This document shows, one piece after another, positions 3,756 through 5,371 of a stretch of DNA of 64,000 nt. Source of the stretch: Macrocybe gigantea (Eukaryota; Basidiomycota; Agaricomycetes; Agaricales; Callistosporiaceae); NCBI GenBank assembly GCA_011319805.1, contig SJRY01000066.1, forward strand, positions 62,001 to 126,000. Reading direction: 5' to 3'. A model generated the notes under the pieces. It searched no databases and had not been told where the DNA came from. It was given only the letters and a program-made list of their open reading frames with translations. The position numbers and the translations under genes were made by a program. The first letter of the stretch is position 1. The number at the start of each line of letters is the position of its first letter.

Positions 3756-3760
3756 ATTCT
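3756..3760. repeat. 5-bp target-site duplication, left copy
   Basis: ATTCT lies directly before the 5' LTR and is repeated directly after the 3' LTR at 5367-5371, as expected for integrase-mediated insertion. Confidence 0.9.
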
Positions 3761-4016
3761 TGTTGGAAATGGAGTGTTCCGATCGCAACGCCCGTTGGTC
3801 CGACTGATGGGTTTGAAACGGTTCCTATTCCATCTTTGCAAATTCTTATCTGTTTCTTATCTATAAGTAGTTGTACTGTTGATGTGCCCCTCCCCATCCG
3901 TTTGCCTCACGAGCTCACCGAGGCCAAACTGAATCTATTTGTTTTGCTGCCCCCTGCCCTGCTGTTCGACTCGCCATCCGCTGGCTGATTTCCCGCGTCG
4001 CGCTCGAATTCTAACA
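3761..4016 (+). repeat. 5' LTR of Gag-only element
   Basis: 256 bp, starting TGTTGGAAAT and ending GAATTCTAACA. It is identical to the copy at 5111-5366. A TATAAGTAG-like stretch occurs near the middle (CTATAAGTAG) and could serve as its TATA element; that is inference. Confidence 0.95.
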
Positions 4017-4026
4017 CAAACGGATC

Positions 4027-4048
4027 CTGCCTATTTCGGAAGAGGCAG
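4027..4048 (+). other. Small stem-loop just after the 5' LTR
   Basis: CTGCCT and AGGCAG form a perfect six-base stem around a ten-base loop in the untranslated leader. In retroelements this region carries primer-binding and packaging signals. Any function here is inference. Confidence 0.3.
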
Positions 4049-4186
4049 TCAAGAATTTCCCTTCCCTGTTGACGCCCGCAGCACGCTACGCTGCAGAAGA
4101 AGGTGTGGTATCCTCTAATACCACAGAAGACGTGAAGAAGACCCCCCCTCCTTTCCCTTCCCCCACCTATCCACCACCCTGCCAAG

Positions 4187-5032
4187 ATGACCAGCACCGA
4201 AAACACGGCGCATTTCGCTCGCCTCAACGACACGAACTATGCAGAGTGGGCCGTGCGAATGGAAGCCACCCTCACCAGATACTCGCTGTGGAAAGTGGTC
4301 GATGTCACCGTTGACACTGCCGGGAAGTCAGAAGAAGCGATCGCCGCAGAAATACAAAAGAGGAAAGCCGCACGAAAGGAGGACGACATGGCTCGGGCAC
4401 GTGCTGAGATGATCCTCCGAGTCGAGGATAATCAGCTTGTTCATATGAGCTCCCGTGACCCCATGGAGATCTGGCAGACAATCGAACGTGTCCACCGCGC
4501 TGCCGGTTTTGCAACCAGCTTGTCCCTTCGCAGGCGTTTTCTCACCGCCAAGAAGGGATCGGAGCAGTCAATGCAAGCCTGGATTGGCTCTGTTCAAGCC
4601 CTCGCTTTCCGGATGGATGCAGCCGGTATTTCCGTTACTGATCAGGACAAGATCCTCGCTATCACCATGGGACTCCCCCCTTCCTACGACAATGTCATAA
4701 TCAATTTTGATTCCATGTCCCCCGATGCCTTGACGCTCGACCTCGTTATCGCTCGCTTGCTGAATGAGGAAGTCCGTCAGAAGACTGCCGCACCGATTGT
4801 AAAAGCCGAAGAAGAAGAAGACGAAAACGTAGCGATGACCGCCACCCCGGGCCGGAGCCGTACCAGATCAGAAGTTAAGTGCTACTTCTGTGACGCGATC
4901 GGGCATTACAAGTCAGACTGCCCGGAACGCAAAGCATGGGAGAAATCGCAGACGAAGAAGAAAACTACGGACACAGCTGCCGCTGCCTGGGAATCGGATG
5001 ATAGCTCAGATGGCAGTGGGTTTGAGCTTTGA
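4187..5032 (+). CDS. Copia-type Gag polyprotein
   Basis: 281 residues, uninterrupted, with an ATG 171 bases after the 5' LTR. The N-terminal part (LNDTNYAEWAVRMEATL) is the characteristic start of the Copia gag/UBN2 domain, which builds the capsid-like particle. The middle holds the family pattern EIWQTIERVH ... LRRRFLTAK ... ILAITMGLPPSYD. A C-terminal CCHC zinc knuckle (CYFCDAIGHYKSDC) would bind RNA. The tail is acidic and Ser-rich and ends in a stop 78 bases before the 3' LTR. No frameshift is needed, unlike most host genes nearby. The product would package element RNA in cytoplasmic particles; reverse transcription must come from elsewhere. Confidence 0.92.
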   Translation: MTSTENTAHFARLNDTNYAEWAVRMEATLTRYSLWKVVDVTVDTAGKSEEAIAAEIQKRKAARKEDDMARARAEMILRVEDNQLVHMSSRDPMEIWQTIERVHRAAGFATSLSLRRRFLTAKKGSEQSMQAWIGSVQALAFRMDAAGISVTDQDKILAITMGLPPSYDNVIINFDSMSPDALTLDLVIARLLNEEVRQKTAAPIVKAEEEEDENVAMTATPGRSRTRSEVKCYFCDAIGHYKSDCPERKAWEKSQTKKKTTDTAAAAWESDDSSDGSGFEL

Positions 5033-5110
5033 AGAGCTGAAGATTACGGGGGTGCGCTGACCCCCCCCCCCCTTTTTTTGATTATGGTTGGCGTTGCGCT
5101 CGCGGGGGTG

Positions 5111-5366
5111 TGTTGGAAATGGAGTGTTCCGATCGCAACGCCCGTTGGTCCGACTGATGGGTTTGAAACGGTTCCTATTCCATCTTTGCAAATTCTTATC
5201 TGTTTCTTATCTATAAGTAGTTGTACTGTTGATGTGCCCCTCCCCATCCGTTTGCCTCACGAGCTCACCGAGGCCAAACTGAATCTATTTGTTTTGCTGC
5301 CCCCTGCCCTGCTGTTCGACTCGCCATCCGCTGGCTGATTTCCCGCGTCGCGCTCGAATTCTAACA
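5111..5366 (+). repeat. 3' LTR of Gag-only element
   Basis: Identical in length and sequence to the LTR at 3761-4016. It is preceded by a short G-rich stretch (GCGGGGGTG) that could be a minimal polypurine tract, and by a C/T run near 5060-5080. Confidence 0.95.
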
Positions 5367-5371
5367 ATTCT
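5367..5371. repeat. 5-bp target-site duplication, right copy
   Basis: ATTCT, matching 3756-3760. Confidence 0.9.

Follow-up and report, generated by a model that had tools for sequence, protein, structure and literature searches.

Does an LTR retrotransposon that encodes Gag and no Pol represent the remains of a complete element, or can it be a mobile element of its own kind? Non-autonomous LTR elements are often taken as decay products. The question was raised by a locus in a 64,000-nucleotide stretch of DNA (the window), bases 62001-126000 of contig C66 in the 41.2 Mb, 333-contig assembly of the fungus Macrocybe gigantea, where the gag-only form looks stable, diversified and recently mobile. 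The evidence presented here supports, with a probability of about 0.8, the reading that the window element belongs to an old fungal lineage of semi-autonomous LTR retrotransposons that encode Gag alone and borrow Pol in trans.

A complete element with one gene

The element spans positions 3761-5366 of the window (1,606 bp) and is a complete LTR element, with direct LTRs, TG...CA ends, a target-site duplication and a polypurine tract. Its features are listed below; the ten LTRs aligned to assess the proposed primer are two from full copies and eight solo rows.

3756..3760, no strand: left target-site duplication, ATTCT, found once on C130, the counterpart contig with the empty site
3761..4016, forward: 5′ LTR of 256 bp, TGTTGGAAAT...AATTCTAACA, with 19 LTR matches in the assembly
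3862..3867, forward: TATA-like box TATAAG at LTR position 102, in 10 of the 10 LTRs aligned
3896..3904, forward: proposed RNA 5′ end and self-primer ATCCGTTTG at LTR position 136, intact in 8 of the 10 LTRs aligned
4017..4025, forward: proposed primer-binding site CAAACGGAT, abutting the 5′ LTR, an exact 9-nt complement of 3896-3904
4187..5032, forward: intact gag of 281 aa, Copia-type capsid plus CCHC knuckle, C-terminus ...SDGSGFEL
4880..4921, forward: CCHC zinc knuckle (CYFCDAIGHYKSDC), spacing C2-C4-H4-C
5090..5110, forward: conserved pre-LTR motif with polypurine tract GGCGTTGCGCTCGCGGGGGTG
5111..5366, forward: 3′ LTR, same sequence as the 5′ LTR
5367..5371, no strand: right target-site duplication, ATTCT

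As the original prediction had stated, the two LTRs (3761-4016 and 5111-5366) do not differ at any of their 256 nt, and the 5-bp duplication ATTCT flanks the element at 3756-3760 and 5367-5371. The only long open reading frame (4187-5032, 281 aa) ends 78 nt before the 3′ LTR, and therefore there is no space for pol. It matches Pfam Retrotran_gag_2 (E 2.9e-25), as expected of a Copia-type gag (Pseudoviridae), and its CCHC knuckle is also matched (E 2.8e-5), in agreement with the claim of one intact Copia-type gag without room for pol. A single LTR-bounded gag ORF without pol was found in all four full copies in the assembly, and the likening to TR-GAG elements was sound in this respect. The Pol order protease-integrase-RT-RNase H is not found in the window element, where pol is absent; being Copia-like by gag alone, the element is therefore not classed as a Copia element.

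In the AlphaFold model of the window Gag (mean pLDDT 86.7), most of the chain as far as residue 201 is helical. A profile built from 50 Gags matched the Drosophila Copia VLP protein (8vvw, 8s41) with E 1.4e-26, and the other PDB matches covered little beyond the zinc knuckle.

Copies, empty sites and a second family

Eight of the 19 LTR matches are the LTR pairs of four full copies of 1603-1606 bp (family 1), located on C66, C265, C161 and C259. The LTR pair is identical within each copy, each copy has its own separate 5-bp duplication, and the four Gag proteins are identical. The gag genes (190 synonymous and 653 nonsynonymous sites) showed 0-5 synonymous and 0 nonsynonymous differences in the six pairwise comparisons and, as judged from these substitutions, the family 1 Gag appears to be kept under selection. 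Recombination between the LTRs of an element leaves a solo LTR, and the remaining 11 matches correspond to seven solo sites and one fragment (C175). The solo sites are on C85, C292, C257, C220 (the same site as on C133, in two pieces), C65, C244 and C33 (the same site as on C3). Exact 5-bp duplications are found at six of the seven, with a mismatch at the C257 site. The solo LTRs are 89-100% identical to the window LTR and therefore are not all old. One solo-LTR site is present on two contigs, at C220:8253-8508 and C133:134923-138408, which suggests haplotype contigs in the assembly. On C133 the solo LTR is split by an insertion of roughly 3.2 kb whose ORF looks like a Tc1/mariner transposase.

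Flanks of 1.0-1.2 kb from each full copy were searched against the assembly, and second contigs were found for all of them: C130 (99%), C49 (99%), C185 (100%) and C17 (96%). All four insertion points are empty on the counterpart contig, where the target is found once (ATTCT, GACGT, TCCAC and ATATC). The joined flanks aligned to the empty contigs at 113/115, 109/115 (6 gap positions), 115/115 and 110/114 positions, and an exact 30-mer spans each of the four joints. Clean excision is not known for LTR elements; therefore, the empty counterparts are pre-integration sites. With a single target at four of four counterparts, the insertions are recent and are not deletion products, and the recent insertion proposed originally is upheld by both the identical LTR pairs and these sites. 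The census suggested as a check, taken within this assembly, returned four full copies, seven solo-LTR sites and four empty counterparts, and the lack of a second copy, which the original prediction had set against itself, is contradicted by three further full copies in the assembly. The paired contigs are taken to be two nuclear haplotypes of one strain; if they were duplicated segments instead, insertion is demonstrated equally well. A chance origin of the window structure was excluded by the three additional full copies with their own duplications and the four empty sites. Assembly duplication was considered as an explanation and rejected.

A second family was found on C257 and C332, which encode Gags 39% and 38% identical to the window Gag, respectively. 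Both are complete gag-only elements with 220-bp LTRs (95-96% identical) and the target-site duplications CTTGC and CACAG, taken from the sequence. Their start-to-start LTR spacing is 1334 bp versus 1350 bp in family 1, and gag, of 270 aa, is the sole internal ORF larger than 115 aa. Between the two Gags there are 8 synonymous and 11 nonsynonymous differences (dN/dS about 0.4), a point against the reading favoured here. A further copy, on C217, is truncated at its 5′ side. At C217:60473-61108 this truncated copy has another LTR end (TGTTAGGCTAGACG...) on both sides, in inverted orientation to each other, an arrangement that looks like capture in a rearranged element.

The two families share a motif across the 3′ LTR junction, GGCGTYGCGCTCGCGGGGGNG followed by TGTTGGAA. 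Allowing up to 3 mismatches, it was found in the assembly at exactly the seven gag-only loci, with 3 mismatches at C217 and 0 at the other six; the reversed control had no match in the assembly. A hairpin around the polypurine tract (GGCGTTGCG / CGCAACGCC), apparently covarying between the families, is not claimed: it is absent from the best fold of family 1. Compared with mononucleotide shuffles, the two families gave z-scores of -0.6 and -2.0, and four resident Copia junctions gave -2.7, 0.5, -2.0 and 0.2. Possible hairpins with arms flanking the polypurine tract and LTR start, with weak statistics, were also noted in several families, at window positions 5090-5142 and at the resident Copia 3′ junctions.

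Relatives, resident Copia elements and priming

A search of about 5.8 billion proteins found 180 relatives at E<=1e-3, with lengths of 155-491 aa. The 120 matches listed are 44-73% identical to the window Gag and come mostly from short contigs without a species name; named sources among them are Pleurotus djamor, Bondarzewia mesenterica, three Mycena species and Gymnopilus dilepis. Three species from different orders, Bondarzewia mesenterica (Russulales), Mycena venus (Agaricales) and Phlebia brevispora (Polyporales), belong to the Agaricomycetes, in line with the fungal origin that had been proposed. The Gag was not found in viral contigs or in prokaryote genome contigs. Proteins of gag-pol length were searched with a query lengthened with filler, a procedure that needs shared short words and may miss distant relatives. 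One such search found no gag-pol with the window type of gag among proteins of 570-1813 aa, and its sole match was a Phlebia brevispora model in which an unrelated N-terminus is fused, without pol. The family 2 query (520-1654 aa) retrieved one gag-pol, P0122, which is 30% identical to family 2 and 29% to family 1 and is therefore not closer to either family than the families are to each other.

The knuckle is present in 110 of the 120 listed relatives, and at least 25 residues follow it in 99 (21 rows were dropped). In these 99 the tails after the knuckle are 25-46 residues long (median 33), with a mean of 5.3 D/E in the last 16. The last residue is F in 61, W in 25 and L in 3, and an aromatic residue is found within the last three positions in 89. 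The protease motif D[ST]G[AC] after the knuckle was found in none of the 99 listed relatives with a readable tail. The Gags of the two M. gigantea gag-only families end in L, not F or W. We read these acidic tails of the stand-alone Gags as a stop kept in place by selection. By protein sequence the stand-alone relatives in other fungi appear gag-only, and some of them may have a separate pol ORF next to gag.

Two gag trees were compared. The first included 27 of the 120 listed relatives, the three gag-only Gags of the assembly and 19 resident gag-pol Gags, and placed all the gag-pol rows on one side with support 87/44. The second, with 18 relatives, the same three gag-only Gags, seven resident gag-pol Gags and P0122, gave support 90/59 for the same split. 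Long-branch warnings accompanied both trees, and the gag-only side is modestly supported. Joining P0122 to family 2 was disfavoured (p-AU 0.0165), and joining it to the family 1 type was not firmly rejected (p-AU 0.057).

The assembly contains 117 RVT_2 matches. Proximity of gag and RT was assessed for 69 of 75 gag matches (the six lowest omitted) against 95 of these 117; the 22 omitted were mostly weak or second pieces, one of them sharing a contig with a gag-only copy more than 700 kb away. A same-strand RT in the 9 kb following gag was found at 0 of the 7 gag-only loci and at 42 of the 62 other gag loci. Since it was also absent at the other 20, the absence of RT proves nothing by itself; it is the LTR-bounded form that does. 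Identity to the window Gag is about 25% for the resident gag-pol Gags that score best, and a few weaker ones are 30-34% identical over short stretches. A pol-bearing relative with the same LTRs, the other finding named in advance as adverse, did not appear: the LTR pairs among the 19 matches belong to gag-only copies and none to a pol-bearing element, nor was a pol-bearing element with the conserved 3′ motif found in the assembly at up to 3 mismatches. The gag-only lineage looks old and diverged rather than newly derived from an autonomous family resident in the assembly.

The absence of pol together with demonstrated insertion points to mobilization in trans, in support of that part of the original prediction, and the autonomous Copia partner that it named is the likely donor. 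The second family, the stand-alone relatives, the empty sites and the probable self-priming go beyond that prediction. Among the resident elements seen, the LTR ends make the Copia of C310/C270 (TGTTGGAA...TTCTAACA) the best candidate; it shares its first 8 and last 8 bases with the window LTR. Its open frames are of 1571 (C310) and 1532 aa (C270), its primer site is of the tRNA type, and its Gag was not detected by the window Gag search; it is a lead only. The C310 copy (C310:65400-72200), with its 1571-aa frame and LTRs identical over 231 nt, looks recently active. In another Copia family, on C285, a 3′ LTR ends beside the apparent 3′ part of a tRNA gene, a second tRNA-like stretch lies further on, and targeting near tRNA genes is possible.

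The resident Copia loci with a placed LTR end (C224, C131, C310, C248, C94 and C259:128767) have GGT[TC]ATGGGCCC directly after the LTR, and the same sequence was found at C212, C311 and C259:129388, where the LTR pair was not placed. The 14-mer GGTYATGGGCCCCG, which we take to represent the anticodon half of initiator tRNA-Met, matches the assembly exactly at 60 places (control, 0), all of them outside the seven gag-only loci. Instead, the LTR is followed by the nine bases CAAACGGAT in family 1, CAAACGCGC in C257 and CAAATGCGC in C332. In self-priming of the Tf1/sushi type, bases beside the 5′ LTR pair with the RNA 5′ end. The family 1 site is an exact complement of LTR bases 136-144, and the patterns used found a single TATA-like box in this LTR, 34 nt before them. 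In C257 the site and bases 154-162 of the 5′ LTR, 33 nt after the TATA-like box, form a 9-nt stem that includes one G-U (7 nt exact), and the 3′ LTR contains the exact 9-nt complement of the site. The C332 pairing covers 8 nt with G-U allowed, 4 of them exact.

The observed stem was equalled by 93 (C66), 11 (C257) and 138 (C332) of 5000 shuffled LTRs, while the autonomous LTRs of C224, C310, C248 and C94, with stems of 10, 8, 7 and 4, were equalled by 491, 1773, 3744 and 4996 of 5000. When only exact pairs were counted the numbers were 37 of 20000 for C66 and 203 of 20000 for C257. As background, 9086 window positions were scanned for a 9-mer complementary to part of the 256 nt before it, and 17 had one. 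In the predicted folds, the site is paired with 8 of the 9 primer bases in C66 (probabilities 0.56-0.83), with 9 of 9 in C257 (0.94-1.0) and with 7 of 9 in C332. Taken together, these pairings and folds make it likely that both gag-only families are self-primed.

Explanations and known systems

In the semi-autonomous reading, transcription is predicted to start about 34 nt after the TATA-like box. The RNA would encode Gag alone, and Gag, by its sequence family, would form a Copia-type capsid around the RNA. The RNA 5′ end would then fold back onto the nine bases beside the 5′ LTR and act as its own primer. Reverse transcriptase, RNase H, integrase and, if needed, protease would be supplied in trans, most likely by a resident Copia element. 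The cDNA inserts with 5-bp duplications, as observed at the four copies. The lineage would have persisted without pol until it split into families with 39% identical Gags; an old pol-less lineage is proposed because there are two families in the assembly and stand-alone relatives elsewhere.

One alternative is that the element arose by plain internal deletion from an autonomous Copia family that either persists or was lost recently. This has a precedent in Arabidopsis, where the TR-GAG AT5TE33540 is described as highly similar to a potentially autonomous ATCOPIA63 member (PMC8704663). It is very improbable here, given that the window LTR pairs occur in the assembly only in gag-only copies, the best-scoring resident Gags are so distant (about 25% identity), the 3′ motif is limited to gag-only loci, and the same gag-only form recurs in a second family and in many stand-alone relatives. 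The identity of Gag across four copies could also reflect a host-domesticated gag gene carried in a repeat, an idea scarcely credible for a sequence with LTRs and duplications at four unrelated sites, each empty on the counterpart contig.

The remaining alternatives concern parts of the cycle. Priming by a tRNA fragment, with the LTR complement a product of chance, deserves serious consideration even if we doubt it. From 1345 first-look candidates 63 were scored and 38 tRNA genes were read, and two of these 38, L110 and L121 (Ser(CGA) or, with an intron, Arg(UCG), by ARAGORN), match the family 2 nine-base site over 9 nt; the tRNA required by the resident Copia site is not among these 38; and the self-primer stem is short, the exact match to the 5′ LTR being 7 nt in C257 and 4 nt in C332. 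However, family 1, the recently active one, matches this type of tRNA over only 6 nt and its own LTR over 9, the primer end would fall in the anticodon stem (as the drawn fold is read), and both families have the LTR complement at the same distance, 33-34 nt, from a preceding TATA-like box. A different donor, a self-priming Ty3/gypsy element of the Tf1/sushi kind instead of Copia, would fit the self-priming described for that group (PMC6317226) and the half-tRNA-Met type of the resident Copia primer sites read. Such a donor is unlikely, since the window Gag is Copia-type, the C310/C270 Copia LTRs share both terminal 8-base stretches with the window LTR, and self-priming is predicted as well for the plant Copia lineage TAR (PMC6317226).

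A broader and rather speculative extension of the semi-autonomous reading is that Agaricomycetes harbour an ancient two-component retrotransposon, with capsid, RNA and primer on a 1.6-kb gag-only element and the enzymes elsewhere, in which the F/W-ending acidic tail would serve as a docking peptide that loads foreign Pol. In the stand-alone Gags this tail stands where gag-pol proteins continue into protease.

If the semi-autonomous reading is right, near-identical contigs that differ by an insertion offer a simple system to study how a capsid without Pol acquires Pol, and the element bears on the minimum size of an LTR element. The question is also raised of whether self-priming spares a dependent element competition with its donor for tRNA primers. 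The literature consulted on TR-GAG, non-autonomous fungal elements, gag-only basidiomycete elements and self-priming Copia, mostly in non-subscription journals and in part only as excerpts, contained no fungal gag-only lineage.

The closest known systems share some of these properties. The TR-GAG elements of plants have LTRs, a single gag ORF and no pol (PMC8704663, PMC10025401), and there is evidence of their transposition in Arabidopsis ddm1 (PMC8704663); the window element resembles them in all four respects. It differs in its host, a fungus, in its size (1.6 kb versus a median of 4,837 bp reported for plant TR-GAG) and in being probably self-primed. Whereas the Arabidopsis TR-GAG is highly similar to a potentially autonomous relative, none was found for the window element. 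In wheat, RLG_Sabrina_SA and RLG_WHAM, described together with RLG_Wilma, code for Gag, lack RT and integrase and presumably depend on a partner, and barley Sabrina and WHAM have very little homology to their proposed partner BAGY2 (PMC9744471). Gag coding, the absence of RT and integrase and partner dependence are thus shared; nevertheless, those are high-copy Gypsy elements of plants that encode Gag plus protease, Sabrina_SA being 8.1-8.3 kb (PMC9744471).

The Tf1/sushi elements are self-priming retrotransposons (PMC5445492, PMC6317226). The window element is predicted to share with them the pairing of bases beside the 5′ LTR with the RNA 5′ end, but they are Ty3/gypsy elements with pol and it has a Copia-type gag alone and a 9-nt primer. 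GalEa, a fungal Copia, has a 5-bp duplication, LTRs of about 235 bp and no tRNA primer site; its 9-nt site is palindromic and forms a local hairpin, its knuckle is C2-C4-C4-H, and its authors looked for a complement to the site in U5 and found none (PMC5445492). The window element is likewise fungal and Copia-type, with a 5-bp duplication, LTRs of similar size and no convincing tRNA primer site, but its site, CAAACGGAT, is non-palindromic and has an LTR complement, and its knuckle is C2-C4-H4-C. The likeness of the Gag profile to the Drosophila Copia VLP protein extends over positions 11-267 of 285; that protein presumably comes from a pol-carrying element. Against the known TR-GAG and semi-autonomous elements, what is new is an element that is small, fungal, apparently old, recently mobile and probably self-primed.
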